Below are positions 4,962 to 63,536 of a stretch of DNA of 64,000 bases, piece by piece. The stretch lies in NCBI RefSeq assembly GCF_902829295.1, contig NZ_CADEPL010000010.1, positions 9,792-73,791 of the forward strand, read 5' to 3'. Within the stretch, counting starts at the first letter, position 1; every line of letters begins with the position of its first letter. The DNA is from Vogesella oryzae (GTDB taxonomy: Bacteria; Pseudomonadota; Gammaproteobacteria; Burkholderiales; Chromobacteriaceae). Position numbers and translations under genes: made by a program. The notes under the pieces were generated by a model. That model was not told where the DNA came from. It made no database searches and saw only the letters and a list, made by a program, of their open reading frames with translations.

Positions 4962-7900
4962 ATGAGTTATTCGTTTACTGAGAAGAAGCGTATTCGTAAA
5001 AGCTTTGCGAAGCGTAACACTGTTCTCGACGTCCCATTCCTGCTGGCGACCCAGATCGATTCGTACACCGAGTTTCTCCAGCTGGGTGTGCCTTTCGATC
5101 AGCGCAAGGATGCAGGCCTGCAGGCCGCATTCAAGTCGATCTTCCCGATCGTTAGCCACAATGGCTTTGCGCGTCTGGATTTCGTTCACTACGTATTGGG
5201 CGAGCCGCCGTTCGACGTACAGGAATGCCAACTGCGCGGCATTACCTTTGCTGCGCCACTGCGTGCACGTATCCGCCTGACCATCCTGGACAAGGAATCG
5301 TCCAAGCCGGTGGTGAAGGAAGTTCGCGAAAATGAAGTGTACATGGGCGAAATCCCGCTGATGACCTCGAACGGTTCGTTCATCATCAACGGTACCGAAC
5401 GTGTCATCGTTTCCCAGCTGCACCGTTCCCCGGGCGTGTTCTTCGAGCACGACCGCGGCAAGACGCATTCTTCCGGTAAACTGCTGTTCTCCGCCCGCGT
5501 GATTCCTTACCGCGGCTCCTGGCTGGACTTCGAGTTCGATGCCAAGGATCAGCTGTTCTTCCGTATCGACCGCCGTCGCAAGATGCCGGTATCCATCCTG
5601 CTGAAAGCACTGGGCTACAGCAACGAACGCATCCTGTCCGAGTTCTACAATACCGACACCTTCTTCCTGACGGGTGAAGGCGTGTTCATGAAGGTCGTGG
5701 CTGACCGTCTGAAGGGCGAAGTTGCCAAGTCCGACATCGTGGACAAGGATGGCAAGCTGATCGTTGCCAAAGACAAGCGCATTACCGCCAAGCACATTCG
5801 CGACATCACTACGGCCAACCTGGATCGTATCGAGGTACCGTTCGACGTGCTGGTCGGCAAAGTGCTGGCCAAGAACGTGGTAGCGCCGGAAACCGGCGAA
5901 GTGATTGCCCGTGCCAACGAGGAAATCACCGACGAGCTGCTGGCCAAGATGGACATCCAGGACGTGGCAGAAGTCGAGGTGTTGTACACCAACGATCTGG
6001 ACCACGGTGCCTACATTGCGCAGACCCTGCGTGGTGACGATACCGCCGACCAGTTGGCCGCACGTGTTGCCATCTACCGCATGATGCGTCCGGGTGAGCC
6101 GCCGACCGAAGATGCTGTCGAGCAACTGTTCCAGCGTCTGTTCTTCAATGCGGATAGCTACGACCTGTCCCGCGTTGGCCGCATGAAGTTCAACACCCGT
6201 ACCTTCCAGTACAAATTCGATGACAAGTCTCCGGACTGGTTCCGCACTCTGATCGGCGAGAAATTTGCCGGTCGTCGCGATTCCATCGATGGCGTACTGT
6301 CGACCGAAGACATCGTTTCCGTGATCGCCATCCTGTGCGAACTGCGTAACGGTCGCGGTGAAGTGGACGATATCGATCACCTGGGTAACCGTCGCGTACG
6401 CTCCGTGGGTGAACTGGCCGAGAACCAGTTCCGCGCCGGTCTGGTACGTGTCGAGCGTGCAGTGAAGGAACGCCTGAACCAGGCCGAGTCCGAGAACCTG
6501 ATGCCGCACGACCTGATCAATGCCAAGCCGGTATCCGCTGCGATCAAGGAGTTCTTCGGCTCCAGCCAGCTGTCCCAGTTTATGGACCAGACCAACCCGC
6601 TGTCGGAAGTAACCCACAAGCGTCGTGTGTCGGCCCTGGGTCCTGGCGGTCTGACCCGTGAGCGCGCCGGCTTCGAAGTGCGCGACGTGCATCCGACCCA
6701 CTACGGTCGCGTTTGCCCGATCGAAACGCCGGAAGGTCCGAACATTGGTCTGATCAACTCGCTGGCGGTATTTGCCCGTACCAACGAGTTCGGTTTCCTG
6801 GAAACACCGTACCGCAAGGTAATCGACGGCAAGGTAACCAACGAAATCGAGTATCTGTCTGCGATCGAAGAAGGCCGTTACGTCATCGCTCAGGCCAACG
6901 CCGAGCTGGACGAAGCCGGTACCCTGATCGACGAACTGGTGACCTGCCGTGAAAAAGGCGAAACCATTCTGGCGACCCCGGACCGCGTGCAGTACATGGA
7001 CGTGGCTACCGGTCAGGTGGTGTCTGTAGCTGCCTCGCTGATTCCGTTCCTCGAGCATGACGATGCGAACCGTGCCTTGATGGGCGCCAACATGCAGCGG
7101 CAGGCCGTACCTTGCCTGCGTCCGGAAAAACCGATGGTGGGTACCGGTATCGAGCGCGCTGTGGCCGTCGACTCCGGTACGACCGTGATTGCCCGTCGTG
7201 GCGGCGTGGTGGACTACGTTGATGCCAACCGTGTAGTGGTTCGCGTTAACGACGAAGAAGCCATGGCTGGTGAAGTCGGTGTGGATATCTACAACTTCAC
7301 CAAGTTCACCCGTTCCAACCAGAACACCAACATCAACCAGCGTCCGATCGTACGCGTTGGCGACCTGATCGCCCGCGGCGACGTGGTGGCCGATGGTGCT
7401 TCCACCGATATCGGCGAACTGGCGCTGGGTCAGAACATGACCATCGCCTTCATGCCGTGGAACGGCTACAACTTCGAAGACTCGATCCTGATCTCCGAAA
7501 AAGTGGTAGCTGATGACCGCTATACTTCGATCCACATCGAAGAACTGTCGGTAGTGGCACGTGACACCAAGCTGGGGCCGGAAGAAATCACCCGCGACAT
7601 CCCGAACCTGTCCGAGCGTATGGCAGGCCGTCTGGATGACTCCGGTATCGTTTACATCGGTGCCGAAGTGAACGCCGGTGACGTGCTGGTAGGCAAGGTG
7701 ACGCCGAAGGGCGAAACCCAGCTGACACCGGAAGAGAAGCTGCTGCGTGCGATCTTCGGTGAGAAGGCGTCCGACGTGAAGGACACCTCGCTGCGCGTGC
7801 CGACTGGCATGACCGGTACCGTGATCGACGTACAAGTATTTACCCGCGAAGGTATCGAGCGCGACAAGCGTGCGCAGTCCATCATTGATGCCGAACTGAA

Positions 7901-9137
7901 GCGCTATCGCCTGGACCTGAACGACCAGCTGCGTATTTTCGACAACGATGCTTTCAGCCGTATCGAGCGCCTGATTAGCGGCAAGCCGGCCAACGGTGGT
8001 CCGAAGCGTCTGGCCAAGGGCACCCTGATCGACGCCGAGTATCTGGAAAGCCTGTCGTCCAAGCACGAATGGTTCGACATCCGCATGGCCGATGAAGACA
8101 TCGCCAAGCAGCTGGAACTGATCAAGGAAAGCCTGGCGCAGAAGCGCGAAGAATTCGATCTCAAGTTCGAAGACAAGAAGCGCAAGCTGACCCAGGGTGA
8201 CGAGCTGCAGGCCGGCGTACAGAAGATGGTCAAGGTGTACATCGCCGTGAAGCGTCGTCTGCAAGCCGGTGACAAGATGGCCGGTCGCCACGGTAACAAG
8301 GGTGTGGTATCGCGCATCCTGCCGGTGGAAGACATGCCGTACATGGCCGATGGCCGTCCGGTTGACATCGTACTGAACCCGCTGGGCGTGCCGTCGCGTA
8401 TGAACATCGGTCAGATTCTGGAAGTGCATCTGGGCTGGGCTGCCAAGGGTATCGGCGAACGTATCGATCGCATGCTCAAACAGCAGCAAGGCGTGGAGCA
8501 GGTTCGCAGCTATCTGCAGAGCATCTACAACGAGACCGGCAAGCAAGAGCCGATCGCCGAGATGACAGAGACCGAGATCAAGCTGCTGGCCGAGAATCTG
8601 CGCAAGGGTATGACATTCGCGACGCCGGTATTCGATGGCGCGAAGGAAACCGAGATCCGTCAGATGCTGGATCTGGCTTACCCGGATGCCGACCCGCATA
8701 CCGAACAGCTGGAATTCAACGCCAGCAAGACCCAGATGACCCTGTTCGACGGCCGCTCCGGCGAAGCCTTCGACCGTAAGGTTACTGTGGGTGTGATGCA
8801 CTACCTGAAGCTGCATCACCTGGTTGATGACAAGATGCACGCCCGTTCCACCGGTCCGTACTCGCTGGTTACCCAGCAGCCGCTGGGTGGTAAGGCGCAG
8901 TTCGGTGGCCAGCGTTTCGGTGAGATGGAAGTGTGGGCACTGGAAGCTTACGGTGCCGCCTACACCCTGCAGGAAATGCTGACCGTGAAGTCGGACGATG
9001 TGACCGGCCGTACCAAGATCTACGAAAACATCGTCAAGGGCGAACACAAGATCGATGCTGGCATGCCGGAATCCTTCAACGTGCTGGTGAAGGAAATCCG
9101 CTCGCTGGGTCTGGATATCGACCTGGAACGTTATTAA
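4962..9137 (+). CDS. rpoB: RNA polymerase subunit beta
   Basis: The beta subunit forms half of the RNA polymerase active cleft. The start is the ATG at 4962 ([14 protein letters not shown]) with GGAG 6 nt upstream, giving 1391 residues. The rifampicin region near residue 535 ([14 protein letters not shown], then HKRR and SALGPGG) carries the normal sensitive residues. Other landmarks are [24 protein letters not shown] and the C-terminal [18 protein letters not shown]. It is separated from rpoC by a 26-bp palindrome. Confidence 0.98.
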
Positions 9138-9149
9138 TTAGGTAGGGAT

Positions 9150-9175
9150 GCTTGCGGCCAACGTTGGCCGCAAGC
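9150..9175 (+). repeat. 26-bp perfect palindrome, dispersed motif pair
   Basis: Two head-to-head copies of TGCGGCCAAC fuse into a perfect palindrome centred at 9162/9163, with arms GCTTGCGGCCAAC. It fills most of the rpoB-rpoC gap and would form a 13-bp hairpin arm in the mRNA. It belongs to the dispersed motif family found throughout the window. Confidence 0.85.
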
Positions 9176-42872: not shown

Positions 42873-42992
42873 GGTGTAAAAACTCGCTGTGCGGAACGCG
42901 CGGCCATTACGTGGCGCGGGTTCGCGTTTAAAATGGCAGGAATTGTCGCTAATCGGCGCGTTGTCGCCAAGCAAATACCAACGGGAGAGCGC

Positions 42993-43745: not shown

Positions 43746-43753
43746 CCGTGAGC

Positions 43754-43772
43754 TGGCCGCCGCTTGCGGCCA
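43754..43772. repeat. Dispersed-motif hairpin after folM
   Basis: TGGCCGC-CGCTT-GCGGCCA, a 7-bp stem built from inverted motif halves, lies 9 bp after the folM stop and is followed by ACCTTTG. Same design as at 45663-45681. Confidence 0.7.
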
Positions 43773-43867
43773 ACCTTTGCTGCCGTGCAAAAAATTGGCG
43801 GCCACATGGCAAAAACCGTTCCGATCGGACTAAAATAGCCGGTTTTTCAATTTCTTAGCCGTACCTC

Positions 43868-45754: not shown

Positions 45755-46813
45755 ATGATCAGCTACGAAACCATTACCGACCGCAAGATACGCTTCGCGC
45801 TGGTCGGCTGCGGCCGCATTGCGGCCAACCATTTTGGCGCCATCGAACAGCACGCCGAGCGCTGCGAGCTGGTGGACGTGTGCGATACCGACCCGGCAGC
45901 ACTGGCCGCCGCGGTGGCGCGTACCGGCGCCCGCGGCCACGCCAGCTTGCGCGAGCTGCTGGCCAGCAGCGATGCCGACGTGGTGATTCTCACCACCCCG
46001 TCCGGGCTGCATCCGCAACAGGCGATCGACTGCTTCGCCGCCGGTTTCCACGTGATGACCGAGAGGCCGATGGCTCCCCGCGGGCACGAGGGCGTGACGA
46101 TGGTGAAAGCCGCCGCCCAGGCCGGCAAGCGCCTGTTCGTGGTAAAGCAGAACCGCCGCAACGCCACCCTGCAGCTGCTCAAGCGCGCGGTGCAGGAAAA
46201 GCGCTTCGGCCGCATCTACATGGTGAACATCAACGTGTTCTGGACCCGTCCGCAGTCCTACTACGACCAGGCCGACTGGCGTGGCACCTGGGAGTACGAT
46301 GGCGGCGCCTTCATGAACCAGGCCAGCCACTACGTCGATCTGATCGACTGGCTGATCGGCCCGGTGGAAAGCATGCAGGCCTACACCGCCACGCTGGAGC
46401 GTGACATCGAGGTGGAAGACAGCGGCGTGGTCAGCCTGCGCTGGCGCTCCGGTGCGCTGGGCAGCATGAACGTGACCATGCTCACCTATCCGAAAAACCT
46501 GGAAGGTTCGATCACCATCCTCGGCGAGAAGGGCAGCGTGCGTGTCGGCGGCGTGGCGGTAAACGAGATCCAGCACTGGGAGTTTGCCGAGCCGCACGCC
46601 ATGGACGCCGAGATCCAGGGCGCCAGCTACGCCACCACCAGCGTGTACGGCTTCGGCCACCCGCTGTACTACGACAACGTGATCAACGTGATGCGCGGTG
46701 AAGCCGAGCCGGAAACCGACGGTCGCGAAGGCCTGAAGTCGCTGGAACTGCTGATCGGCATGTATCTGTCGGCCCGCGACGGCAAGCGCATCAGCCTGCC
46801 GCTGGAGTACTGA
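45755..46813 (+). CDS. wbpB: UDP-GlcNAcA 3-dehydrogenase, Gfo/Idh/MocA family (WbpB/WlbA-type)
   Basis: Oxidises the 3-position of UDP-N-acetylglucosaminuronic acid for 2,3-diacetamido uronic acid synthesis. 352 residues with an N-terminal Rossmann motif [16 protein letters not shown], the cofactor-domain [12 protein letters not shown] and the C-terminal Gfo/Idh fold ([18 protein letters not shown]). AAGGAAAG precedes the ATG. The pathway role rests on the directly following wbpD and wbpE type genes. Opens the glycan locus. Confidence 0.88.
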
Positions 46814-46814: not shown

Positions 46815-47384
46815 ATGGCAGCCTACACCGTGCATCCCACCGCCATCGTTGACGATGGCGCCGTGATCGGCGACGACACCCGCGTCTGGCACTGGGTGCA
46901 TATCTGCAGCCAGGCGCGCATCGGGGCGCGCTGCTCCTTCGGCCAGAACGTGTTCGTCGGCAACGATGTGATCATCGGCGACAACGTCAAGGTGCAGAAC
47001 AACGTGTCGATCTACGATGCGGTGACGCTGGAAGACGATGTGTTCTGCGGCCCGTCGATGGTGTTCACCAATGTCAACAACCCGCGCAGCCATGTCAGTC
47101 GCAAGCACGAATACCGCCGCACGGTGGTGAAACGTGGCGCCACCATCGGTGCCAACGCCACCATCGTCTGCGGTCATACCGTCGGCGAGTACGCCTTCAT
47201 CGGTGCCGGTGCCGTGGTGACCCGCGATGTGAAACCGTATGCGCTGATGGTCGGCACCCCGGCACGACGCATCGGCTGGATGTGCCAGTGCGGCGAACGC
47301 CTGCCGGACAGCATCGACCAGCACGCCTGCATCGTCTGCGGCCAACGTTACGACATCGGCGGCAATCACTGCGCGCCTATCTGA
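46815..47384 (+). CDS. wbpD: UDP-sugar 3-N-acetyltransferase (WbpD-type), left-handed beta helix
   Basis: Acetylates the 3-amino group made by WbpE. 189 residues; hexapeptide repeats ([20 protein letters not shown] and following) with the catalytic-region [10 protein letters not shown]. The last 35 residues add a zinc-ribbon-like tail (CQC about 17 residues before CIVCG, then HC at the end), seen in some WbpD homologues. Starts 1 nt after the wbpB stop. Confidence 0.88.
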
Positions 47385-48865: not shown

Positions 48866-50154
48866 AGCTGCAGACCCTGTTCCGCCGGCTGAGTGCCGGC
48901 GGTTTTGCCCGTAACGTGGCCACCCTGGCCAGCGGGGCGGCGCTGGCGCAGGCGCTGCCCTTGCTGTTTGCGCCGCTGCTCACCCGCTTGTATACCCCGG
49001 CCGATTTCGGCTTGCTGGCGGTGTTCGTCGCCTGGTTGTCCAATCTGGCGGTAATCGCCACCGCCCGCTTCGACATGGCGGTGGTGTTGCCGAAAACCGA
49101 TACCGAAGCGGCGAGGCTGATGCGGCTGTCGCTGCTGATCAACACCGCCTTGCTGTTGCTGTGCCTGTTGCTGTTCTGGCCGTGGCATCAGGCCATTGCC
49201 GGCTTGCTGCACGCACCGGCCCTGGCGCCGTGGCTGCCGCTGCTGCCGCTCGGCGTCTGGCTGGCCGGCTGCGTGGCGGCGTGGACGGCGTGGAACAACC
49301 GCCTGCGCCGCTATGCGGCCAACGCCCAGGGGCGGGTGGCGCAGTCGCTGGGCGTGTCGTTGCTGCAGCTGGCGGCGGGCTGGTCCGGTCTGGCGGCGGC
49401 TGGCCTGATCGTGTCGCAACTGGCCGGGCAGGCCATCGCGCTGCTGGCGCTGGCGCGTAGCGATATCGCGGCGCGTTTTGCCAGCCTGCGCGGGCATGAT
49501 CGGCAACAGCTGCTGGCGGTGGCACGGCGTTACCGCGAGTTTCCGCTGGTGAACACGCCGCATGCCTTCGTGGTGGCGTTTCAGGATTCGCTGATGCTGG
49601 CGCTGCTCACCGCGCTGTCCGGTGCCGGCATTGTCGGCCAGTATGCGCTGGTGCTGCGGGTGCTCAAGTTGCCGGCGGCGCTGGTGGGGCAGGCGGTGGC
49701 GCAAGTGGTGTTCCGCGATCTGGCCGAAGCCGCCGCCGCCGGGCGCGCGCTGTCCGGCCTGCTCAAGCGGGCGTTATTGATTCTGGCGGCGTTGTCGCTG
49801 CTGCCGTTCGGCCTGTTGGCCGCCTGCGGCGGCCCGCTGTTCGCGCTGGTGTTCGGCGCCGGCTGGCACGGCGCCGGGCAGATTGCCGCGGTGCTGGCGC
49901 CGTATTTTGCCGCCTCATTCATTGCCGGCCCGGCGTTCATGGTGCCGATGGTGATCGGCAAGCAGCGGGCATCGTTTGTGTTTGTGCTGTTCGGTGTGAT
50001 CATCAATCTGGCGGTATTCGCCGCGGTGTATCTGCTCGGTCGCGATGCAATGCAGGCGTTCGCGGTGATGTCGGCGGTGATGACAATCTATTTTGCGGCC
50101 TATGTGGCGTGGGTGTTCCGCCTGCTGGGCCGCCGGGAATCGGCTCATGCTTAA
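48862..50154 (+). CDS. Wzx-type polysaccharide/oligosaccharide flippase
   Basis: A MOP-superfamily protein of 430 residues with about 12 hydrophobic segments, thought to move lipid-linked glycans across the inner membrane. The N-terminal NVATLASGAALAQALPLLFAPLLTRLYTPADFG contains the family hallmark LTRLYTPADFG. It is the only flippase in the locus. The last 8 nt overlap the next gene. Confidence 0.88.
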   Translation: MKLQTLFRRLSAGGFARNVATLASGAALAQALPLLFAPLLTRLYTPADFGLLAVFVAWLSNLAVIATARFDMAVVLPKTDTEAARLMRLSLLINTALLLLCLLLFWPWHQAIAGLLHAPALAPWLPLLPLGVWLAGCVAAWTAWNNRLRRYAANAQGRVAQSLGVSLLQLAAGWSGLAAAGLIVSQLAGQAIALLALARSDIAARFASLRGHDRQQLLAVARRYREFPLVNTPHAFVVAFQDSLMLALLTALSGAGIVGQYALVLRVLKLPAALVGQAVAQVVFRDLAEAAAAGRALSGLLKRALLILAALSLLPFGLLAACGGPLFALVFGAGWHGAGQIAAVLAPYFAASFIAGPAFMVPMVIGKQRASFVFVLFGVIINLAVFAAVYLLGRDAMQAFAVMSAVMTIYFAAYVAWVFRLLGRRESAHA

Positions 50155-50665
50155 TCGCATCATGTTGCTGCTATGGCGCTGCTGGTTGCAGCTGCGCGGG
50201 GCAAGGTTGGCCGCATCGGCGCGGGTCAATCCGTCGGTGCAGGTTCGTGCGGCCGCGCTGCAAATGGGCGCGGACTCGCGCCTGTACTGGGGTGGCGACG
50301 TGCTGGGCAGCGGCCGGCTGCTGATTGGCGCCCACAGCCATCTGGCCCCCTATTTCTATTGCCTGCTGGGCACGCATGACTTGCGCTTCGGCGACCACGT
50401 CGCCGTCGGGCCGCGCTGCATGTTTTTCTGCCGCAGCAATGGCATCCCGGCCGATGCGCCGGCCACGCCGTTTACCGATTGCTATGTCGGCGGCGATATC
50501 ACGGTCGGCAACAATGTGTTCATCGGTGCCGGCAGCATCGTGCTGCCGGGCAGCCGCATCGGCGACAACGTGGTGGTGGCCGCCGGCAGTGTGGTCAAGG
50601 GCGAGCTGGACAGTGGCTGGCTGTATGCCGGGCAGCCGGCACGCAAGGTGAAGCCGCTATGCTGA
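50147..50665 (+). CDS. Left-handed beta-helix O-acetyltransferase
   Basis: 172 residues, MLNRIMLLLWRCWLQLRGARL, with hexapeptide repeats (VGPRCMFFCRS and VGNNVFIGAGSIVLPGSRIG) and the closing LYAGQPARKVK. A WcaF/NodL-like glycan acetyltransferase is likely. It lacks the PglD-type N-terminal domain. A second in-frame ATG at 50162 is possible as start. Overlaps the flippase end and the next gene. Confidence 0.8.
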   Translation: MLNRIMLLLWRCWLQLRGARLAASARVNPSVQVRAAALQMGADSRLYWGGDVLGSGRLLIGAHSHLAPYFYCLLGTHDLRFGDHVAVGPRCMFFCRSNGIPADAPATPFTDCYVGGDITVGNNVFIGAGSIVLPGSRIGDNVVVAAGSVVKGELDSGWLYAGQPARKVKPLC

Positions 50666-51885: not shown

Positions 51886-52961
51886 AACTGCTGCTGATCG
51901 GCTCGGCGTCGGTGCACACCTTCCGCTACCTGGCCGGCATCGCCGCGCATGTGGCCGAGGTGCATCTGGTGACCAGCGGCCCGCTGCCGGAGCGCTACCA
52001 TGCGGCCAACCTTGGCCGCGTACTGCAAGTGGATTTCAGCCTGCGCGCGCTGGGCACCGCCCGCCGCCTCGCGGCGCTGATCGACGAGTTGCAGCCGGAT
52101 ATGGTGCACGTGCATCAGGCCAATAGCGTGGCCTGGCATGCGCGCCGCGCCCTGGCCGGCAAGCGGCTGCCGTGGCTGCTCACCACCTGGGGGTCGGATG
52201 TGTTGCTGCTGCCGCAGCAGAGCCGGCTGATGAAAAACATGGTGGCGGCCAACCTGGCGGCCGCCAGCGCGGTGAGCAGCGATTCGCTGCACATGGCGGC
52301 AGTGTGTCGCCAGCTGGCGACCATCCGCCGCATGGACGTGCTGAATTTCGGCATGGACGCGCTGCCGCCGCTGCCGGATATCGCCGCCAAGCCGCTGCAG
52401 GTACTGTCCTGCCGCCTGCACAAGCCGCTATACCGTATCGATGCCATCGTGCGCGCTTGGGCACAGGTGGAGGCTGATGTCCGTTTTGCCGGCTGGTCGC
52501 TGACCGTGGCCGCCAGCGGCAGCGAGACCGAGGCGCTGCTGCAGCTGGCCAGATCGCTGCAGCTGCAGCGCATCCACTTCACCGGCTTCGTGACGCCGGA
52601 CGTGCTGGCCGGACTGTATCGCGATGCGCGCCTGTTTGTCAGCGTGCCGGAGAGCGACGCCACCAGCATCAGCCTGCTGGAAGCCATGGGTCACGGCTGC
52701 CTGCCGGTACTGTCCAACCTGCCGGCCAACCTGGAATGGGTGCTGGACGGGGTCAACGGCGCCATCGTCGAGGACGTTGGCCGCCTCGGCGACGCGCTGC
52801 AAGCTCAGTTGCTGCGCGCCGCCGATGATACGCAGCTGGCGGACGCCGCCGCGCTCAATCGCCGGCTGGTGGCGGACAAGGGCCTGCAGCAGGCCAATAT
52901 GGCGCGCTTTGCCGCCATCTACCAAGATTTGCTGGCGCGCGGCACTGATAGCGCGCGCTGA
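51882..52961 (+). CDS. GT4-like glycosyltransferase 1
   Basis: 359 residues, MKLLLIGSASVHTFRYLAG. GT-B fold with the WGSD motif in TTWGSDVLLLP and the donor-site ESDATSISLLEAMGHGCLPVLS (E-x7-E form). Acceptor and sugar are unknown. The ATG overlaps the stop of the preceding gene (ATGA). The gene carries a perfect-size 18-bp pair of the dispersed motif at 52002-52019, coding HAANLGR. Confidence 0.87.
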   Translation: MKLLLIGSASVHTFRYLAGIAAHVAEVHLVTSGPLPERYHAANLGRVLQVDFSLRALGTARRLAALIDELQPDMVHVHQANSVAWHARRALAGKRLPWLLTTWGSDVLLLPQQSRLMKNMVAANLAAASAVSSDSLHMAAVCRQLATIRRMDVLNFGMDALPPLPDIAAKPLQVLSCRLHKPLYRIDAIVRAWAQVEADVRFAGWSLTVAASGSETEALLQLARSLQLQRIHFTGFVTPDVLAGLYRDARLFVSVPESDATSISLLEAMGHGCLPVLSNLPANLEWVLDGVNGAIVEDVGRLGDALQAQLLRAADDTQLADAAALNRRLVADKGLQQANMARFAAIYQDLLARGTDSAR

Positions 52962-54092: not shown

Positions 54093-54788
54093 ATGACTGC
54101 GGCCAAGCCCAAACCCCATCGTCCGCACGCGGCGCTGCCACTGCACATGCTGCTGGCACGGCCACGGCTGCTGTCGGCCAGCCTGTTCGGCGCGATGGTT
54201 GGTGGCTTGGCGCAGGGCTTGTGGGCGCTGCGCGGCATGACCGCCTTCATGCTGGGCTGGAATGCCGGTGCCTTGCTGTACCTGCTGTTGGCCGCACACA
54301 TGATGTATGGCGCCAGCGAGGCGAGCATCCGCCGCCGCGCGCTGCAGGAGGATGTCGGCCAGCGCAGCATCATGGCGCTGGTGGTGATGTCGTCGATTAC
54401 CTGCCTGCTGGCCATCGCGCTGGAGCTGTCGGCCGCGCGCGAGCTGCACGGCGCACTGCGTGCCGGTCATGCCGCGCTGGCGGCGCTCACCATCCTCAGT
54501 TCGTGGCTGTTTACCCAGACCATGTTCGCGCTGCATTACGCCCACACCTACTTTGTCGGCCTGCAGCAGGGCGGGGCGCCCGGGCTGATCTTTCCGGGTG
54601 ACGCTACCCCGGACTACGCCGATTTTTTCTATTTTTCCGCCGTGATCGGAACCTCGGCCCAGACTGCCGACGTCAGCCTGGCCAGCCGCCAGATGCGTCG
54701 CATCGGTACCGTTCACTGCATCCTGTCCTTCCTGTTCAACACCACGGTACTGGCGCTGATGATCAACATCCTCGCCGGCCTGTTGTAG
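54093..54788 (+). CDS. DUF1345-like inner-membrane protein
   Basis: 231 residues from the ATG at 54093 (MTAAKPKPHRPHAALPLHM), with about five hydrophobic segments and the conserved HYAHTYF and DFFYFSAVIGTSAQTADVSL that characterise DUF1345. Function unknown. Its place between two glycosyltransferase genes, 10 nt after the first, may be chance insertion or a role in the pathway. Confidence 0.85.
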   Translation: MTAAKPKPHRPHAALPLHMLLARPRLLSASLFGAMVGGLAQGLWALRGMTAFMLGWNAGALLYLLLAAHMMYGASEASIRRRALQEDVGQRSIMALVVMSSITCLLAIALELSAARELHGALRAGHAALAALTILSSWLFTQTMFALHYAHTYFVGLQQGGAPGLIFPGDATPDYADFFYFSAVIGTSAQTADVSLASRQMRRIGTVHCILSFLFNTTVLALMINILAGLL

Positions 54789-54828: not shown

Positions 54829-56055
54829 GTGCGCATTCTCTACATCAACCATTACGCCGGCAGCCCGCAGCACGGCATGGAATTCCGCCCCTACTACCTG
54901 GCGCGCGAATGGGTCAAGGCCGGGCACGAAGTGCACATGTTGGCCGCAGATTATTCCCACCTGCGCCAGCACAACCCGGTGCTGAGCAGCAACTACGCCG
55001 ACCAGGACATCGACGGCATCCGCTACACCTGGTGCAAGACGCCGAAGTACGAGGGCAACGGCCTGAAGCGGGTGATCAACATCTTCCGTTTCCTCGGCCG
55101 GGTGATGGGGCTGTCCGGGCGCTATCTCAAACAGTGGCGGCCGGATGTGGTGATCGCCTCCTCCACCTATCCGCTGGATACCGTGCCGGCGGCGTTCATC
55201 GCCGGCAAGACCGGGGCCAAGCTGGTGTACGAGGTGCACGACCTGTGGCCGCTGACGCCGGTGGAAGTGGGCGGCATGAGCCCGAAGCATCCGTTCATCC
55301 GCCTGCTGCAGTGGGCGGAGGACTTCGGCTACAAGAAAGCCGATACCGTGGTGTCCATGCTGCCGTGCGCGAAGGACTACATGATGGCGCACGGCATGGC
55401 GCCGGAAAAATACGTGGTGATTCCCAACGGCGTGGACGTGGCCGAATGGCAGGGCGCCAGCGAGCCGCTGCCGGCCGAACACCGCATGCGGCTGGCGGAA
55501 CTGAAGGCCGACCGGCGCTTTATTGTCGGCTACGCCGGTGGCCATGGCCTGGCCAATGCGCTGGATTTCCTGCTGCTGGCGGCCAGCCAGCTGCAGGGCG
55601 ACAAACTGCACATCGTGCTGGTGGGTGATGGCCCGGACAAGGCGGCGTTGGTGGCGCAGGCACAGCAGCTGGGGCTGACCAATGTCAGCTTCCTGCCGTC
55701 CATCCCCAAGCGCGCGGTACCGGCCTTCCTCGCCGAGTGCGATGCGTTGTACATCGGCTGGCGCAAGTTGCCGATCTACCGCTTCGGCATCAATCCCAAC
55801 AAGCTGTTCGACTACCTGATGGCCGCCAAGCCGGTGGTGCATTCGGTGGAAGCTGGCAACGACATGGTGGCCGAGGCTGGCGCCGGCATCAGTGTCGGCG
55901 CGGAAGACCCGGCCGCCATCGCCGGCGCCCTGCGCCGCATCATGAACACCACCGCCAACGAGCGTGGCCGCATGGGGGCCGCCGGCAAATCCTACGTGCT
56001 GGCAAAACACGATTACGCAGTGCTGGCGCGGCGCTTTTTGCAGGGCATTCGCTAA
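54829..56055 (+). CDS. GT4-like glycosyltransferase 3 (WbuB/WcaI-type)
   Basis: 408 residues from a GTG at 54829 with AGGAAAG upstream. The start RILYINHYAGSPQHGMEFRP and VYEVHDLWPLTPVE, KADTVVSMLPCAKDYM and INPNKLFDYLMAAKPVV match the WbuB/WcaI subgroup of GT4, which often adds an N-acetylated hexosamine or fucosamine. The donor is not proven here. Confidence 0.88.
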   Translation: MRILYINHYAGSPQHGMEFRPYYLAREWVKAGHEVHMLAADYSHLRQHNPVLSSNYADQDIDGIRYTWCKTPKYEGNGLKRVINIFRFLGRVMGLSGRYLKQWRPDVVIASSTYPLDTVPAAFIAGKTGAKLVYEVHDLWPLTPVEVGGMSPKHPFIRLLQWAEDFGYKKADTVVSMLPCAKDYMMAHGMAPEKYVVIPNGVDVAEWQGASEPLPAEHRMRLAELKADRRFIVGYAGGHGLANALDFLLLAASQLQGDKLHIVLVGDGPDKAALVAQAQQLGLTNVSFLPSIPKRAVPAFLAECDALYIGWRKLPIYRFGINPNKLFDYLMAAKPVVHSVEAGNDMVAEAGAGISVGAEDPAAIAGALRRIMNTTANERGRMGAAGKSYVLAKHDYAVLARRFLQGIR

Positions 56056-56058: not shown

Positions 56059-56078
56059 TGCGGCCAACGTTGGCCGCA
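56059..56078. repeat. 20-bp perfect palindrome, dispersed motif pair
   Basis: TGCGGCCAACGTTGGCCGCA fills most of the gap between the third glycosyltransferase and the acyltransferase. It is the full head-to-head form of the dispersed motif. Confidence 0.85.
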
Positions 56079-57137: not shown

Positions 57138-57154
57138 CGGCCAAGGTTGGCCGC
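57138..57154. repeat. Dispersed-motif inverted pair
   Basis: CGGCCAA-GG-TTGGCCG plus a final C lies 2 bp after the acyltransferase stop; a 7-bp stem with a two-base centre. Confidence 0.7.
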
Positions 57155-57208
57155 AAGCATGTTTACCCGGTGGCAGCGTGCCACCGGCTGGTAATGAAAG
57201 ACAACATA

Positions 57209-58372
57209 ATGGCTGAACAGAAATTTTTACCTTTCGCCCTGCCGGACATCGGCGAAGACGAAATCAATGAAGTGGTCGACGCGCTGCGTTCCGGCTGGGT
57301 GACCACCGGCCCCAAGACCAAGCAGTTCGAGGCTGATTTTGCGGCCTTTATCGGTGACGGCGTGGAAGCGATTGCGGTCAACTCCGCCACGGCCGGCCTG
57401 CATCTGGCACTGGAAGCGGTGGGGGTGGGCGAGGGCGATGAGGTGATCGTGCCGTCTTACACCTTTACTGCCACCGCCGAGGTGGTGCGCTATCTCGGCG
57501 CGCATCCGGTGATCGTGGATGTCGATCCGCTCACCTTCAATATCCGCCCGGAGGCGATCCGTGCCGCGATCACCGCCAAGACCAAGGCGATCATGCCGGT
57601 GCATTTTGCCGGCCTCGCCTGCGATATGGACGCCATCATCGCCATCGCCCGCGAGCACGGGCTGAAGATCGTCGAAGACGCCGCCCACGCGATGCCCACC
57701 TGGTACAAGGGCAAGCTGATCGGTACGCTGGATTCCGACGTGACCGTGTTCAGCTTCTACGCAAACAAGACCATGACCACCGGCGAAGGCGGCATGGTGG
57801 TGTCCAAGAACAAGGACATCATCGCCCGCTGCAAGGTGATGCGCCTGCACGGTATCAGCCGCGATGCCTTCGACCGCTACACCTCGAAGACGCCGGCCTG
57901 GTATTACGAGGTGGTCGCGCCCGGCTTCAAGTACAACATGCCGGACACCGCCGCGGCGATGGGCATTCACCAGCTGAAGAAGATCAACGCCTTCCTGCAG
58001 AAACGCGAAAGGTTGGCCGCACGCTTTGATGCCGAACTGGCCGACCTGCCGCTGATCCTGCCGGCGCGTCCGGTGGACGCTGGCAGCAACCACGCCTGGC
58101 ATCTGTATCCGGTGCGCCTCAAGCCGGAAGCCGGTATCAGCCGCGACGATTTCATCGTGCAGATGGCGGAGAAGGGCATCGGTTGCTCGGTGCACTTCAT
58201 TCCGCTGCACCGCCAGCCGGTATGGCGCGACGGTTACGGCCTGAAGTGCGAGGACTTCCCGGTGGCCGACGCCGCGTTCGAAGCCGAAGTGACGCTGCCG
58301 CTGTATACCCGCATGACGGATGACGACCAGAGCCGCGTCATCGCTGCCGTACGCCAGTTGCTGGGCAAGTGA
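57209..58372 (+). CDS. UDP-4-keto sugar aminotransferase (ArnB/PglE-like)
   Basis: 387 residues from the ATG at 57209 ([18 protein letters not shown]); an in-frame ATG at 57194 is possible. DegT family with [39 protein letters not shown] and the PLP lysine in [15 protein letters not shown]. Close in pattern to ArnB and PglE. Next to a PglF-type dehydratase, it probably makes a UDP-4-amino-4,6-dideoxy-GlcNAc-type sugar. Confidence 0.87.
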
Positions 58373-59022
58373 TGGCGCAGGCGCCTGATACTCTGCGGCC
58401 AACGTTGGCCGCATCCCACGGCTCGCCAGTGCTGAAGCGGCTGTTCGACCTGCTGGCAGTGCTGGCCGGGCTGGCGCTGCTGTGGCCGCTGCTAGTGCTG
58501 ATCGCGCTGTGGGTGAAGCTGGATTCGCCAGGACCAGTGTTTTTCCGTCAGCTGCGGGTTGGCCGCGGCGGGCAGCTGTTCCGCATCCACAAGTTCCGCA
58601 CCATGAAGATCGGCGCCGAGGCTGCCGGCCAGCTGACGGTGGGCGCGGACAGCCGCGTTACCCGCGCTGGCCATATCCTGCGCAAGACCAAGCTCGACGA
58701 GCTGCCGCAGTTGCTGGACGTGCTGTTCGGCGATATGAGCCTGGTCGGCCCGCGCCCGGAAGTGCCCAAGTACGTGGCACATTACCCGGACGGGGTGAAG
58801 GAGCTGGTGCTGTCGGTGCGGCCGGGCATTACCGACTGGGCGTCGATCAGGATGATCGACGAGAACGAGATTCTGGGTAAGGCCGCCGATCCGGAGCGCG
58901 CCTATATCGAGCAGGTGCTGCCGGAAAAACTGGCGTACTACCAGCGTTATGCGCGGAGTTACACCCTGGCCGGGGATGTGAAGATCATCCTGGCTACCCT
59001 GCTGAAGATTGTGACGCGCTGA
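58372..59022 (+). CDS. Initiating phosphoglycosyltransferase (PglC/WcaJ-type)
   Basis: Transfers a phospho-sugar to undecaprenyl phosphate, the first membrane step. 216 residues from the ATG at 58372 (overlapping the previous stop as TGATG). A re-entrant helix near residues 20-42, VLKRLFDLLAVLAG, then KFRTMKIGAEA, KTKLDELPQLLDVLFGDMSLVGPRPE and RPGITDWASI give the small PglC-like family. The first 20 codons read through the dispersed palindrome, so the true start could be the GTG at 58430. Confidence 0.9.
   Translation: MAQAPDTLRPTLAASHGSPVLKRLFDLLAVLAGLALLWPLLVLIALWVKLDSPGPVFFRQLRVGRGGQLFRIHKFRTMKIGAEAAGQLTVGADSRVTRAGHILRKTKLDELPQLLDVLFGDMSLVGPRPEVPKYVAHYPDGVKELVLSVRPGITDWASIRMIDENEILGKAADPERAYIEQVLPEKLAYYQRYARSYTLAGDVKIILATLLKIVTR
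58394..58413. repeat. 20-bp perfect palindrome inside a gene 5' end
   Basis: TGCGGCCAACGTTGGCCGCA, the same 20 bases as at 56059-56078, here inside the predicted N-terminus of the phosphoglycosyltransferase (residues about 9-15). Confidence 0.85.
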
Positions 59023-59041: not shown

Positions 59042-60928
59042 ATGCTGGAAAAAATGCTTTCCTTCTCGCGTCATCACAAGATGGCGCTGTTGATGCTGCT
59101 GGATGCGCTGCTGCTGCCGCTGGCGCTGTGGAGCGCGGTGTTGCTGCGCCTGGGCGGCAACTGGGATCCGAAGCTGGACCCGTATTTGTGGATTTTCGCG
59201 GTGCCGCCGCTGTGGGTGCTGCCGATCTTCATCAAGCTGGGGCTGTACCGCGCGGTGCTGAAGTTCCTTGACGACCGTATCGTCTACACCGTGTTCATCG
59301 GCGTGTCGCTGTCGGTGCTGGTGTTGATGGCGGTGGTGCTGATGGCCGGCATCGGCCCGATGCCGCGTACCGCCATCATCATCTTCTGGGTGTTCGCCAT
59401 GGCCTATATCGGTGGCAGCCGCTTCCTGCTGCGCGGGGTGGTGCGCCGTATCGACGCGCTGGATGCGCCGCGGCGGCCGGTCATCATCTACGGCGCCGGC
59501 CGTGCCGGCCTGCAGCTGATGGTGGCATTGCAGGAAGGCCGCGAATACCGGCCGATGGCGTTTGTCGACGATAACCCGCAGCTGTGGGGTCGTACCTACC
59601 GCGGCTTGATGGTGCATGACCCGAAAACGCTGGCCGAGCTGGTGGACGATACCGATGCGCAGCTGCTCCTGCTGGCGCTGCCGTCGGCCAGTCGTGGTCG
59701 CCACCGCCAGATACTGGAGCAGCTGGAAAGGCTGCACGTGCCGATCAAGCGGCTGCCGGGCATGGCCGACCTGGTGTCCGGCGAGGTGCGGGTGGACGAG
59801 CTGCGCGAGGTGGAGATCGAAGACCTGCTGGGCCGCGACCCGGTGCCGCCGCGTGGCGAGCTGCTGGCGGCTAACATCCGCGGCAAGGTGGTGATGGTTA
59901 CCGGTGCCGGCGGCTCCATCGGCTCCGAGCTGTGCCGGCAGATCGTCAAGCAGCAGCCGGCGCGCATCGTGTTGTTCGAGCTGACCGAATTCGCGCTGTA
60001 CAGCATCGACCAGGAGCTGGCGCGGCTGGCGCCGGCGGTGGAGCGGGTGCCGGTGCTGGGCACGGTTACCGACCTGTCACGGCTCACTTCGGTACTGCAG
60101 GTGTTCGCGGTGGAAACGGTGTACCACGCCGCCGCCTACAAGCATGTGCCGCTGGTGGAGCACAATCCGCTGGCCGGCATCGTCAACAATGCTTTCGGTA
60201 CCGATACCTGCGCGCGGGCGGCGGAAGCGGCCGGGGTGGCGACTTTTGTGCTGATTTCCACCGACAAGGCGGTGCGGCCAACCAATGTGATGGGCGCCAC
60301 CAAGCGGCTGGCGGAGCTGGCGCTGCAGGCGCGCCATGCCGCCGGCAGCCGCACCCGTTTTGTGATGGTGCGCTTTGGCAATGTGCTGGGCAGCTCCGGC
60401 TCGGTGGTGCCGCTGTTCAAGCGCCAGATTGCCGCCGGCGGCCCGGTGACGCTGACCCATCCGGACATCACCCGTTACTTCATGACCATCCCCGAGGCGG
60501 CGCAACTGGTGATCCAGGCCGGCGCGATGGGCGAGGGCGGCGACGTGTTCGTGCTGGACATGGGCGAGCCGGTGAAGATCGCCGACCTGGCGCGACGCAT
60601 GGTGCATCTGTCCGGGCTGGAAGTGCGCGACGAGCACAATCCGCATGGCGATATCGAGATTCGCTGCACCGGCCTGCGTCCGGGCGAGAAGCTGTACGAG
60701 GAGCTGCTGATCGGCGACGGCGTGCTGGCCACCGACCACCCGCGCATCATGCGTGCGCAGGAGTACCACCTGCCGGCCGCCGAGCTGGATCAATACCTGG
60801 CGCAGCTGGCGAGCGCCTGTGAACAGCTGGACGCGCCGCGGGCGTTTGCCCTGCTGCAGGAGGTGGTGCACGAGTTCAAGGCGGCCGAGCGCACTGTGGA
60901 CTGGATCAGTCTGGCCCGCCAGGGCTGA
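59042..60928 (+). CDS. UDP-GlcNAc 4,6-dehydratase, PglF/WbpM/CapD-type
   Basis: Makes UDP-4-keto-6-deoxy-GlcNAc, the precursor of bacillosamine and related sugars. 628 residues: four N-terminal membrane helices, a first CoA-binding-like Rossmann domain (VIIYGAGRAGLQLM), and the C-terminal SDR domain with VTGAGGSIGSELC, ISTDKAVRPTN and the MGATK catalytic pair in which Met replaces Tyr, as in WbpM and PglF. Last gene of the glycan locus. Confidence 0.92.
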   Translation: MLEKMLSFSRHHKMALLMLLDALLLPLALWSAVLLRLGGNWDPKLDPYLWIFAVPPLWVLPIFIKLGLYRAVLKFLDDRIVYTVFIGVSLSVLVLMAVVLMAGIGPMPRTAIIIFWVFAMAYIGGSRFLLRGVVRRIDALDAPRRPVIIYGAGRAGLQLMVALQEGREYRPMAFVDDNPQLWGRTYRGLMVHDPKTLAELVDDTDAQLLLLALPSASRGRHRQILEQLERLHVPIKRLPGMADLVSGEVRVDELREVEIEDLLGRDPVPPRGELLAANIRGKVVMVTGAGGSIGSELCRQIVKQQPARIVLFELTEFALYSIDQELARLAPAVERVPVLGTVTDLSRLTSVLQVFAVETVYHAAAYKHVPLVEHNPLAGIVNNAFGTDTCARAAEAAGVATFVLISTDKAVRPTNVMGATKRLAELALQARHAAGSRTRFVMVRFGNVLGSSGSVVPLFKRQIAAGGPVTLTHPDITRYFMTIPEAAQLVIQAGAMGEGGDVFVLDMGEPVKIADLARRMVHLSGLEVRDEHNPHGDIEIRCTGLRPGEKLYEELLIGDGVLATDHPRIMRAQEYHLPAAELDQYLAQLASACEQLDAPRAFALLQEVVHEFKAAERTVDWISLARQG

Positions 60929-60971: not shown

Positions 60972-61015
60972 GCGCCATCAGGGAAAGCGATAGCTGGCAA
61001 GCTCCGCATTTTCTG

Positions 61016-61167: not shown

Positions 61168-62481
61168 GTGAAAATCAACCGACTTACCGCCATGATTCTG
61201 GCAGCCATGCTGCTGGGTATCGTCGCCGGCTATGGCTGGCGTGAATATGCCGGCAGCCCGGAGGCCATCAACGCCTTCGCTGACCAGCTTTCCATTCTGA
61301 CCGACATCTTCCTGCGCCTGATCAAGATGATCATCGCGCCGCTGGTGTTCTCCACCCTGGTGGTAGGCATCGCGCGCATGGGCGACTCCGCCACCGTTGG
61401 CCGCATCGGCGCCAAAACCATGGGCTGGTTCGTGACCGCGTCTTTCGTGTCGCTGTCGCTGGGCCTGATCATGGTCAATCTGCTCAAGCCGGGCGTAGGG
61501 CTGGGCCTGCCGCTGCCGGACGTGGCCGCCAGTTCCGGTATCGAGAAGGGCGCGCTGACGCTGAAGGACTTCATCGGTCACCTGATTCCGAAGAGCGTGT
61601 TCGATGCGCTGGCCAAGAACGAGATCCTGTCCATCGTGGTGTTCTCGGTATTCTTCGGCACCGCCGCTGCCGCCGTCGGCGACAAGGCCAAGGGGCTGAT
61701 CGACGCCATCGATGCCGTGGCGCACATCATGCTGAAAGTCACCGGCTATGTGATGAACTTCGCGCCGTTCGCGGTGTTCGCGGCGATTGCCAGCATGGTG
61801 GCCAAGGAAGGCTTGGGCATCCTGTCGACCTACGGCAGCTTCATGGCGCAGTTCTATCTGACGCTGGGCATGCTGTGGCTGTGCCTGCTGCTGATGGGCA
61901 GCGTGTTCCTCAAGCGCCGCGTGTTCGAACTGCTGGTGGCGGTACGTGAACCGGCACTGCTGGCGTTCTCCACCGCCAGCTCCGAAGCCGCCTACCCGAA
62001 GACCCTCGATCGCCTGAAGCGTTTCGGTTGCAGCGACCGCATCGCCAGCTTCGTGCTGCCGATGGGCTACTCGTTCAACCTCGATGGCTCGATGATCTAC
62101 TGCACTTTTGCCAGTATCTTCATTGCCCAGGCCTATGGCATCAACCTGTCGCTGTCGCAGGAAATCACCATGATGCTGATCCTGATGGTGACCTCCAAGG
62201 GCATGGCCGGCGTGCCGCGCGCCTCGCTGGTGGTGATTGCCGCCACCCTGGCACAGTTCAATATTCCGGAAGCCGGCCTGCTGCTGCTGCTGGGCGTGGA
62301 TCACTTCCTCGACATGGGCCGTTCCGCTACCAACGTGCTGGGTAACGCGCTGGCTGCCAGCGTGGTGGCCAAGAGCGAGAACGCGCTGGGTGCCGCCCAG
62401 CCGGAGCTGGACGAAGACGACGATATCGATCCGGAACCGCGTCAGGAACTGGAGCCGGCATTCGCCAAACAGCAGGCCTGA
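61168..62481 (+). CDS. Dicarboxylate/amino acid:cation symporter (GltP/DctA family)
   Basis: Imports C4-dicarboxylates or acidic amino acids with cations. 437 residues from a GTG at 61168 (MKINRLTAMILAAMLLGIV). Family landmarks: serine-rich AFSTASSEAAYP hairpin, GYSFNLDGSMIY, VTSKGMAGVPRASL and DHFLDMGRSATNVLGN. Proximity to aspA favours aspartate or C4-dicarboxylate. An acidic C-terminal tail (ELDEDDDIDPEP) is noticeable. Confidence 0.92.
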   Translation: MKINRLTAMILAAMLLGIVAGYGWREYAGSPEAINAFADQLSILTDIFLRLIKMIIAPLVFSTLVVGIARMGDSATVGRIGAKTMGWFVTASFVSLSLGLIMVNLLKPGVGLGLPLPDVAASSGIEKGALTLKDFIGHLIPKSVFDALAKNEILSIVVFSVFFGTAAAAVGDKAKGLIDAIDAVAHIMLKVTGYVMNFAPFAVFAAIASMVAKEGLGILSTYGSFMAQFYLTLGMLWLCLLLMGSVFLKRRVFELLVAVREPALLAFSTASSEAAYPKTLDRLKRFGCSDRIASFVLPMGYSFNLDGSMIYCTFASIFIAQAYGINLSLSQEITMMLILMVTSKGMAGVPRASLVVIAATLAQFNIPEAGLLLLLGVDHFLDMGRSATNVLGNALAASVVAKSENALGAAQPELDEDDDIDPEPRQELEPAFAKQQA

Positions 62482-62505
62482 TCGCCGCTGTTACGCTGTG
62501 CCGAC

Positions 62506-62529
62506 AAGCCGCCTGCGGGCGGCTTTTTT
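62506..62529 (+). terminator. Terminator after the symporter
   Basis: AAGCCGCC-TGCG-GGCGGCTT with six T in all. A single motif copy (GCGGCCAA, 62556-62563) lies between it and the LysR gene. Confidence 0.88.
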
Positions 62530-62581
62530 GCGTCTGGCGCGCAGTGGTGTAGCATGCGGCCAACTTGTGCTGGAGTCCCCG

Positions 62582-63493
62582 ATGGATACCCGCTGGCTGG
62601 AAGATTTTCTGCTGTTGGCCGAGACCGGCAGCTTCACCCGTTCGGCCGAGCTGCGCCACCTGACGCAGCCGGCGTTCTCGCGCCGCATCAAGTCGCTGGA
62701 AAGCTGGCTGGGGGCCGACCTGATCGACCGCACCACCTGGCCGACGCAGCTGACGCCGGCCGGCGAGATGCTGCGCGAGAAGGCGCGCGTGCTGGTGGGC
62801 GAGCTGAGCAGCACCCGCAGCCAGTTGCGCGCGCTGCAGGCGGCCGATGCCGCCACACTGACGCTGGCGGTGCCGCATACTTTGTCGTTCGGTTTCGTGC
62901 CGCGCTGGCTGGCCGAGGAGCACGAGGCGGTCAGCGAGATATCCTGGCGGCTGCTGGCGCACAACGTCCACGACGCGGTAGTGGCACTGGCCGAAGGCAA
63001 CGCCGACCTGATGCTGTGCTACCACCATCCGCGCCATCCGGTGGAATTGCCCGCCGAGCGCTACCAGGCGCTGGTGCTGGGCAGCGAGACGCTGCGGCCG
63101 TTCACCCGCCAGCTGCCGGACGGTACGGCGGAGTGGCAACTGCCGGGCGAGGAACGCTTGCCGATTCCGTTTCTGGCCTACGGCCCGAACGCCTATTTCC
63201 ACCGCATGGTCGAGCTGATCCTGGAACGGGCGGCCACGCCGGCGGCGCTGCAGCGCTGCTTCGAAACCGATATGGCCGAAGGGCTGAAAGCCATGGTGCT
63301 GGAAGGGCACGGCATGGCGTTCCTGCCGCAGAGTGCCGTCAAGCGCGAGCTGGATGGCGGGCAGTTGACGCTGGCCGGCGACGATGACTGGTCGCTGCAG
63401 ATGGAAATCCGCGTTTATCGCGACGCGCGCCGCGAGTTGCCGGCGCTGGATGCCTTGTGGCAACGCCTGGCCGCGCGGTACCCGGCGGTGTAA
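62582..63493 (+). CDS. LysR-family regulator, HypT/QseD-like
   Basis: 303 residues from the ATG at 62582 (MDTRWLEDFLLLAETGSFTR), with the winged-helix HLTQPAFSRRIKSLESWLGADLIDR and a C-terminal effector domain. The sequence pattern (TRWLEDFLLL, TQPAFSRRI, LTLAVPHTLSFGFVP) resembles E. coli HypT/QseD. Homologues sit next to aspA in Pseudomonas, so control of the adjacent aspA and perhaps the symporter is likely. Effector unknown. Confidence 0.88.
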   Translation: MDTRWLEDFLLLAETGSFTRSAELRHLTQPAFSRRIKSLESWLGADLIDRTTWPTQLTPAGEMLREKARVLVGELSSTRSQLRALQAADAATLTLAVPHTLSFGFVPRWLAEEHEAVSEISWRLLAHNVHDAVVALAEGNADLMLCYHHPRHPVELPAERYQALVLGSETLRPFTRQLPDGTAEWQLPGEERLPIPFLAYGPNAYFHRMVELILERAATPAALQRCFETDMAEGLKAMVLEGHGMAFLPQSAVKRELDGGQLTLAGDDDWSLQMEIRVYRDARRELPALDALWQRLAARYPAV

Positions 63494-63512
63494 ACCGCAC
63501 GGAGGCAGCAGG

Positions 63513-63536
63513 TTGGCCGCAGATGCGGCCTTTTTT
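63513..63536 (+). terminator. Terminator after the LysR gene, built on the dispersed motif
   Basis: TTGGCCGCAGATGCGGCC and TTTTTT: GGCCGCA pairs with TGCGGCC over GA, followed by six T. A motif copy supplies the left arm. Confidence 0.82.

Follow-up and report, generated by a model that had tools for sequence, protein, structure and literature searches.

A frequent ten-base word of Vogesella, a probable DNA uptake sequence, with sister dialects in the Chromobacteriaceae

Introduction

To our knowledge, genomic words that mark DNA for uptake are known so far mainly from the Neisseriaceae and Pasteurellaceae. In the Neisseriaceae, a CTG core is present in all eight dialects of the DNA uptake sequence (DUS) and is required (Frye et al. 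2013, PMC3630211). The same study describes two Chromobacterium genomes and those of Laribacter, Lutiella and Pseudogulbenkiania as having no obvious DUS. Neisseria ComP touches DNA through its β1–β2 loop and its DD region, the latter held by two disulfides from four cysteines, one of them in β1 (PMC4906244). For the uptake signal sequences (USS) of the Pasteurellaceae, PMC12616744 gives PpdA/ComN as the proposed receptor and describes Haemophilus-type (Hin-USS) strings with the inner core GCGGT.

Here, a stretch of 64,000 nucleotides from Vogesella oryzae, a member of the Chromobacteriaceae (contig NZ_CADEPL010000010.1, positions 9,792 to 73,791; the window), is analysed for a dispersed word, TGCGGCCAAC, which a model-made, sequence-only reading had proposed as an uptake-type repeat. 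The repeat is real, very strong and genus-wide and, so far as tested, has the characteristics of an uptake sequence: its abundance, its dialects, its restriction to the family in the samples examined, the absence of strand bias, its independence of codon usage, and the presence of a ComP homologue and ComEC are all observed. Very probably, TGCGGCCAAC, with a weak CTTG extension, is the Vogesella DNA uptake sequence, one dialect of a Chromobacteriaceae family with the core CGGCCAAC that is read by a ComP-like pilin.

Abundance in the window and the genome

Both strands of the window together carry 31 exact copies of TGCGGCCAAC, against 0.30 expected from 100 dinucleotide shuffles (largest 2) and 0.47 under an order-3 Markov model, in agreement with the sequence-only reading, which had counted about 30 copies on both strands and put the chance expectation below one in 64 kb. 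Twenty-four of its 26 positions are exact; 6054 should read 6053 and 37792 should read 37782, and five copies (6174, 32662, 33604, 56069 and 58404) had been overlooked. The whole V. oryzae assembly (label G000; 3,415,129 bases, 58 contigs) holds 2273 copies, 1163 forward and 1110 reverse, against 13 of the reversed word used as control. In 264 kb of G000, made up of the window plus ten further stretches of 20 kb, TGCGGCCAAC tops the list of 10-mers that occur at least five times, with 175 copies against 4.1 under an order-4 Markov model. A genome-wide count close to the Markov expectation, named beforehand as grounds for abandoning the uptake idea, was not what these counts returned.

Dialects and their spread over genomes

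The family sample comprised 61 Chromobacteriaceae genomes, 13 of Vogesella and 48 others (G0xx denoting genomes, g2 to g10 genera, with g3 being Chromobacterium). Shared sequence links G049, G054, G051 and G052 to V. alkaliphila, V. margarita, V. fluminis and V. indigofera, respectively, seven g3 genomes to named species of Chromobacterium, and G021 to a Xenophilus sp. record. TGCGGCCAAC occurs 1871–2895 times in 13/13 Vogesella genomes and 8–58 times in the 48 others, and a blind search for over-represented 10-mers in 100–400 kb per genus yielded sister words sharing the core CGGCCAAC; the conservation in related Chromobacteriaceae for which a check had been suggested is found within the genus as the same word and in sister genera as same-core words. 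In shorthand, TG denotes TGCGGCCAAC (Vogesella); CT denotes CTCGGCCAAC, the word of g5; and TT denotes TTCGGCCAAC, the word of g6, g7, g9 and, more weakly, g10 (17 vs 0.8), as well as the top word of G010, one member of g2. The dialects differ at two positions between genera, and TGCGGCCAAC is enriched 43–89 fold over expectation.

Whole-genome counts of YTCGGCCAAC reach 1668–2017 in g5 (2/2 genomes), 744 and 2223 in g6 (2/2), 1258 in g7 (1/1), 1872 in g9 (1/1), 238–1152 in g10 (3/3; the minimum comes from a genome that is 84% complete) and, in g2, 1386 in G010 (1/10), the spelling having been determined for all of these rich genomes except G047. The nine other g2, 19 g3 and four g4 genomes hold 26–93 copies, exceeding the reversed word by a factor of about three at most. 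In g8, two of the six genomes are intermediate (G040 with 154 and G043 with 130; reversed word 34 and 28); YTCGGCCAAC is not over-represented in the 60–80 kb sampled from them, and the counts are perhaps relics of a lost uptake word. In an order-wide sample of 399 genomes, the 386 from outside the family hold at most 223 copies of YKCGGCCAAC, a few of them exceeding the reversed-word control 3–5 fold at low counts, and the eight word-bearing family members hold 1304–2824; in a class-wide sample of 369 genomes, of which the window's own and three more had also been drawn for the order, the maximum among the other 368 is 268.

As far as the literature search reached, this set of dialects across the Chromobacteriaceae was not found in print and appears new: the literature searched, with few subscription papers, preprints or supplements in it, contained no paper that mentions an uptake sequence together with Vogesella, or an uptake signal together with the Chromobacteriaceae, and among the matches listed for four 10-mers, as among those listed for wider queries, none was on this subject by title.

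Other words were also seen. In 100 kb of G039 (g8; L075–L079), another 10-mer, CGCGTCGTAG, has 23 occurrences against 0.8 expected, and could be a further repeat or word; g4 (L090–L094, L118–L119) has a weak excess of CTGATCGAAC, 11 vs 0.6 in 140 kb, possibly a decayed or divergent word; and the blind search returned further over-represented words in G039 and G032.

Independence from coding context

Gene calls came from a rough self-trained caller, and in-gene counts are approximate (in G059, a second Vogesella, 187 copies lie wholly inside genes, or 189 with overlapping genes). In G000, 110 of the 175 copies lie in called genes in several frames, as the sequence-only reading had described, with the AAN and LAA frames making up 75/110. 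That the excess stems from codon or codon-pair usage in alanine-rich proteins, for which the weight of these two frames speaks, is nevertheless almost certainly wrong: when synonymous codons are shuffled within each gene, genic copies fall from 110 to 4.2 in G000 and from 189 to 6.7 in G059, and copies are denser outside called genes (about 1.45 per kb, a figure inflated by missed genes) than inside (0.50–0.57). Because the count drops from 110 to 4.2 although the protein sequence and the codon usage of each gene are preserved, codon usage fails as an explanation; of the codon-based refutation set beforehand, this part is excluded, codon-pair bias lying outside that shuffle. Sister words in G034, G045, G037 and G038 behave likewise; in the same test G002 and G023, both without the word, show 2 copies and none.

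Anatomy and arrangement of the copies

Single-base variants of TGCGGCCAAC in Vogesella are near chance at positions 4–10, the word itself being 89-fold over; at position 1, C and G in place of T are over-represented 7.5- and 6.0-fold, and at positions 2 and 3 the excess reaches 3.8-fold (3–10 copies). G at position 10 is 15-fold over chance in the CT samples and 13.6-fold in the TT samples. The commonest bases at positions 11–14, in 404 copies without a second half-site from the window and further Vogesella stretches, are C (54%), T (55%), T (48%) and G (47%), against 28, 30, 15 and 33% at 178 control GGCCAAC sites; the STT extension proposed earlier is real but weak (47–55% vs 15–33%). Some other dialects favour a base directly 5′ of the word, for example G in 62% of G034 copies, and the conserved positions around copies number only about 10–14.

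Inverted pairs between genes had also been claimed, and three perfect ones are found in the window (9153–9172, 56059–56078 and 58394–58413). In 664 kb of two Vogesella genomes, 23 head-to-head pairs (loop of at most 12 bases) are present, 16 of them between called genes, with 10 of these 16 within 20 bases of a gene 3′ end; by inspection a T run follows only 1/23, so most are not classical terminators. The 20-base inverted pair has no exact occurrence in any viral contig searched. Across 20 stretches of a closed chromosome, each holding 9–19 copies, no replication-strand bias is evident (140 copies on the G-rich strand vs 150 on the other). The variance-to-mean ratio of counts per 20-kb bin is 1.06 (33 bins, two genomes), and gaps of 40–300 bp between copies are rarer than random (9.2 vs 16.2%).

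The copies in the window are as follows; each is an exact TGCGGCCAAC match.

6053..6062, minus strand: copy in rpoB
6174..6183, minus: copy in rpoB, newly found
9153..9162, plus: left half of an inverted pair, 3′ of rpoB at the upstream edge of the rpoC open reading frame (ORF), the RpoC domain starting about 70 bases on
9163..9172, minus: right half of the pair at the rpoC ORF edge
32662..32671, minus: copy in a chemotaxis receptor gene, newly found
33604..33613, plus: copy in a chemotaxis receptor gene, newly found
35138..35147, plus: copy
36597..36606, plus: copy, followed by CTTTG
37782..37791, minus: copy, previously placed at 37792
39970..39979, plus: copy in a Na/H exchanger gene
40387..40396, minus: copy in a Na/H exchanger gene
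41868..41877, minus: copy in a methyltransferase (PF02636) ORF
43133..43142, minus: copy in the same PF02636 methyltransferase ORF
43765..43774, plus: copy in that PF02636 methyltransferase ORF too
45820..45829, plus: copy in a GFO/IDH/MocA oxidoreductase gene
47337..47346, plus: copy in a DegT/DnrJ aminotransferase gene
49314..49323, plus: copy
50206..50215, minus: copy, followed by CTTG
52001..52010, plus: copy, followed by CTTG
54287..54296, minus: copy
54939..54948, minus: copy in a glycosyltransferase gene
56059..56068, plus: left half of an inverted pair, about 3 bases past a called gene end
56069..56078, minus: right half of the pair near that gene end, newly found
57146..57155, minus: copy, followed by CTTG
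58012..58021, minus: copy in a DegT/DnrJ aminotransferase gene
58394..58403, plus: left half of an inverted pair, just past an ORF end (58372), where the next called ORF (58369) begins
58404..58413, minus: right half of the pair at the 58372/58369 ORF junction, newly found
60273..60282, plus: copy in a polysaccharide biosynthesis gene
61396..61405, minus: copy
62555..62564, plus: copy
63512..63521, minus: copy

The spread is uneven, with 4 copies in the first 32 kb, which encodes EF-Tu, NusG, L1, RpoB, RpoC, EF-G, L2, L6 and RpoA, and 27 in the last 32 kb. The 23.5 kb at 9173–32661, spanning most of rpoC and the ribosomal-protein operons, lacks any TGCGGCCAAC, as if the word were kept out of highly conserved genes. 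Elsewhere in the genome, 7.7 kb on G000:C1 (L106:3760-11414) also lacks the word, has a lower GC content (0.571) and contains a 1353-residue ORF that by eye looks like a large adhesin accompanied by its export genes. At 41718–43805 of the window (minus strand), a single open frame fuses an N-terminal part of about 270 residues to the PF02636 methyltransferase; in many relatives, the two parts match separately or with a stop between them, the frame being open in a few others, such as G059 and G013.

History of the word

The dialects were placed on a tree of one methyltransferase domain with 53 rows, including 12/13 Vogesella, which has open forks and a G045 row assembled from pieces. TG and CT each require one change, and TT five, scattered on deep branches amid word-free genomes; on this single-gene tree the dialects match phylogeny, as in DUS. 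The tree suggests that TT, TTCGGCCAAC, may be ancestral, with TG and CT as respellings and the word lost several times. At the methyltransferase locus, all of the Vogesella genomes compared (12/12, G057 left out) carry one copy at a common alignment position, where the rows for Chromobacterium, g4 and g7 show other bases; each of 13 further TG columns is common to 1–5 species (column 606 lying in a poorly aligned flank).

Uptake machinery and a ComP-like pilin

The com/pil genes for which a check had been advised are present: ComEC (PF03772) is found in 59/61 genomes including G000, the two misses being Vogesella drafts, alongside a ComP orthologue, a FimT-like pilin and a secretin gene. Pfam ComP_DUS matches 61/61 genomes, word-free ones included, and pilin presence or absence across the family genomes is no guide to the receptor. 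The sole ComP_DUS match of G000 (C21:49881-50132) was rejected as receptor, being a PilE-like pilin whose matches in the Protein Data Bank include minor pilin PilE (4noa, residues 40–135) and major pilins, with no ComP chain.

The three best solved relatives of a g5 pilin are 2nba, 2m3k and 5hz7, the latter two named ComP and 2nba, titled generally as a pilin, being what we take to be N. subflava ComP. A profile built from five such pilins (G034–G038) has these chains at its top (3.3e-18, 3.2e-16 and 1.1e-15; next chain 1.7e-10) and identifies an orthologue in 13/13 Vogesella (91.8–108.7 bits) and in the ten other word-bearing genomes (119.6–248.1 bits; five of them profile sources); the four g4 genomes reach about 62–70 bits, a level typical of other pilins. 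The V. oryzae protein (141 residues, G000:C22) has 2m3k, Minor pilin ComP, as its best solved match (E 1.5e-6). Its gene overlaps the end of an upstream FimT/GspH-like pilin gene and is neighboured by aroB, aroK and a secretin gene, presumably the usual pilQ neighbourhood; the GspH match there was rejected as a sign of type II secretion, its gene directly preceding comP. A tandem pair of ComP-like pilin genes was seen in G045 (L156, C3:1518666-1519606).

The alignment of orthologues has 57 rows, 23 of them from genomes with the word and 34 from genomes without it. In the predicted β1–β2 loop, N[TAV]D.G is seen in 21/23 of the former and 0/34 of the latter; five word-free rows (G018, G019, G022, G028 and G029) have N.D by aligned columns. 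The only word-bearing g2 genome, G010, has NTDAG and its nine g2 relatives NARAD, NARND or NARDD, which amounts to one independent contrast, the remaining association being confounded by kinship. Nineteen word-bearing orthologues have two cysteines, two have three, one has four and one has five; the C-terminal pair is present in 23/23. Because no cysteine falls in columns 70–105, the stretch that holds β1 (0/23), these proteins lack the second disulfide of the DD region, and the pilin, if it is the receptor, would read DNA without a DD region.

Proposed mechanism and alternative explanations

Uptake would begin when the word in free DNA is bound by the ComP-like protein, a minor pilin of type IV pili whose gene lies beside that of the FimT-like pilin and near aroB, aroK and the secretin gene; the pilus would then retract, ComEC would import one strand, and recombination would copy word-bearing alleles into the population, through which the word would accumulate and be kept. 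DNA binding, a preference in uptake, the part played by the pilin and accumulation by transformation are what we infer from the observations above. The word most likely labels DNA as 'own' during uptake from outside.

Several points weigh against this account. Uptake or transformation data for Vogesella were not found in the literature searched, and the last base of the word is less fixed in the TT and CT genera (G at position 10, 14–15 fold over). The first Pfam ComP_DUS match of G000 belongs to another, PilE-like pilin; the V. oryzae ComP scores under the Pfam cut-off (18.6 vs 27.3), and standard annotation could therefore overlook it. The profile orthologue is also present in word-free genomes, nine of g2, 19 of g3 and six of g8 (78.3–149.5 bits), and since ComP orthologues and ComEC thus occur in Chromobacterium, nine g2 and g8 genomes that lack the word, the machinery alone does not predict it. 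G045 (80% complete, 7% contaminated, with two ComP-like pilins) and G060 bear the word without the N[TAV]D.G loop; the loop signature was chosen after a scan of 138 columns in related genomes; and K64, which splits 21/23 from 0/34, does not hold in G010, the one g2 genome with the word.

The word could instead have been spread as a site of chromosome maintenance (of the Chi, KOPS, SMC/ParB or nucleoid-protein type), selected for a part in replication, repair or segregation. Sites such as Chi and KOPS are short, frequent chromosomal words whose orientation follows replication, and thousands of genus-wide conserved copies on both strands would suit such a site; the near-equal strand counts (140 vs 150), 9–19 copies in every one of the 20 stretches, a variance-to-mean ratio of 1.06, the absence of the word from Chromobacterium and 9/10 g2 genomes, and dialects differing at two positions among genera make it very unlikely, and the nucleoid and recombination alternatives raised by the sequence-only reading fit less well than uptake. 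That the word is recognised by a DNA methylase or a restriction system, as its short fixed form with sharp boundaries would allow, is, on the features of the word itself, highly improbable: restriction sites are usually avoided in genomes whereas this word is enriched 43–89 fold, and methylases usually recognise sites shorter than a non-palindrome of 10 bases. It is hardly credible that the copies are remnants of a dispersed mobile repeat (repetitive extragenic palindrome, REP, or miniature inverted-repeat transposable element, MITE) or a terminator hairpin family: the 23 head-to-head pairs in 664 kb, 16 between called genes, are what such a family would leave, yet most copies are single, conserved sequence does not extend far past the core word, 110/175 G000 copies lie in called genes in several frames, a T run follows 1/23 pairs, and no viral contig searched holds the exact 20-base pair.

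A further alternative keeps the uptake function and changes the receptor to the adjacent FimT/GspH-like or another minor pilin, as proposed for Pasteurellaceae PpdA/ComN. The FimT/GspH-like gene lies directly upstream of comP, the word resembles extended Hin-USS (10/13 bases; 23/20000 shuffles), and FimT-mediated DNA uptake is, by its title, the subject of one study (PMC8897410). ComP is the DUS receptor in Neisseria (PMC4906244), and the loop of the ComP orthologue tracks the word, albeit in columns chosen post hoc and among related genomes; a different pilin as receptor is unlikely, if worth keeping in mind.

An uptake sequence read by the ComP-like pilin is thus preferred, and the sequence-only reading's leading idea is supported, having passed both the genome count and the codon-usage comparison. 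A fuller account, put forward tentatively and given a little less than an even chance, is that the Chromobacteriaceae possess their own uptake family, with TTCGGCCAAC ancestral, a TG respelling in Vogesella, a CT respelling in another genus and several losses (Chromobacterium, most g2, g4, g8), read by a ComP without a DD region whose N[TAV]D.G loop is kept where the word is kept and changed where it is lost. If so, ComP would have changed its target from one core word to an unrelated one in passing between two related families, and the Chromobacteriaceae word would have converged on a Pasteurellaceae-type CGGYCAA.

On the uptake reading, this would be a third bacterial family with a genomic uptake word, having its own core, at least three dialects and several apparent losses; ComP orthologues in both keepers and losers of the word would offer a natural experiment on the joint change of a pilin and a genome-wide word. 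The word would be the tag that DNA should bear for uptake by environmental Vogesella, and a possible marker of recently acquired DNA.

Comparison with known systems

Like the DUS of Neisseriaceae, the Chromobacteriaceae words occur in thousands of copies on both strands, far over Markov expectation, with dialects differing at few positions, inverted pairs, a ComP-family pilin and ComEC. Unlike DUS, they have no CTG in TGCGGCCAACCTTG or its complement, nor in TTCGGCCAAC or CTCGGCCAAC, and the sequence-only reading's verdict that a word without a CTG core is no DUS dialect holds for all three dialect words; with no CTG core and no sign of a DD region, membership as a DUS dialect was rejected. 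Aligned to AT-DUS without gaps, the 13-mer reaches at best a chance-level match (9251/20000 shuffles). The candidate receptor is, like ComP, a homologous type IV pilin, the V. oryzae protein lying below the Pfam ComP_DUS cut-off, and unlike ComP the word-bearing orthologues are without the second disulfide of the DD region.

The USS of Pasteurellaceae are unlike the Vogesella system in their proposed receptor, PpdA/ComN rather than ComP, and in the inner core GCGGT, in place of which Vogesella has GCGGC and the TT and CT dialects TCGGC; despite the resemblance, USS membership was rejected on this core. The two are alike in being frequent genomic words with dialects that vary just 5′ of the core, and TGCGG.CAA..TT is common to the Vogesella word and extended Hin-USS at 10/13 bases, a level reached by 23/20000 shuffled words (15 word–target pairs tried); the fit is poorer for TT (243/20000) and for CT (1138/20000), and the likeness may reflect chance or convergence.

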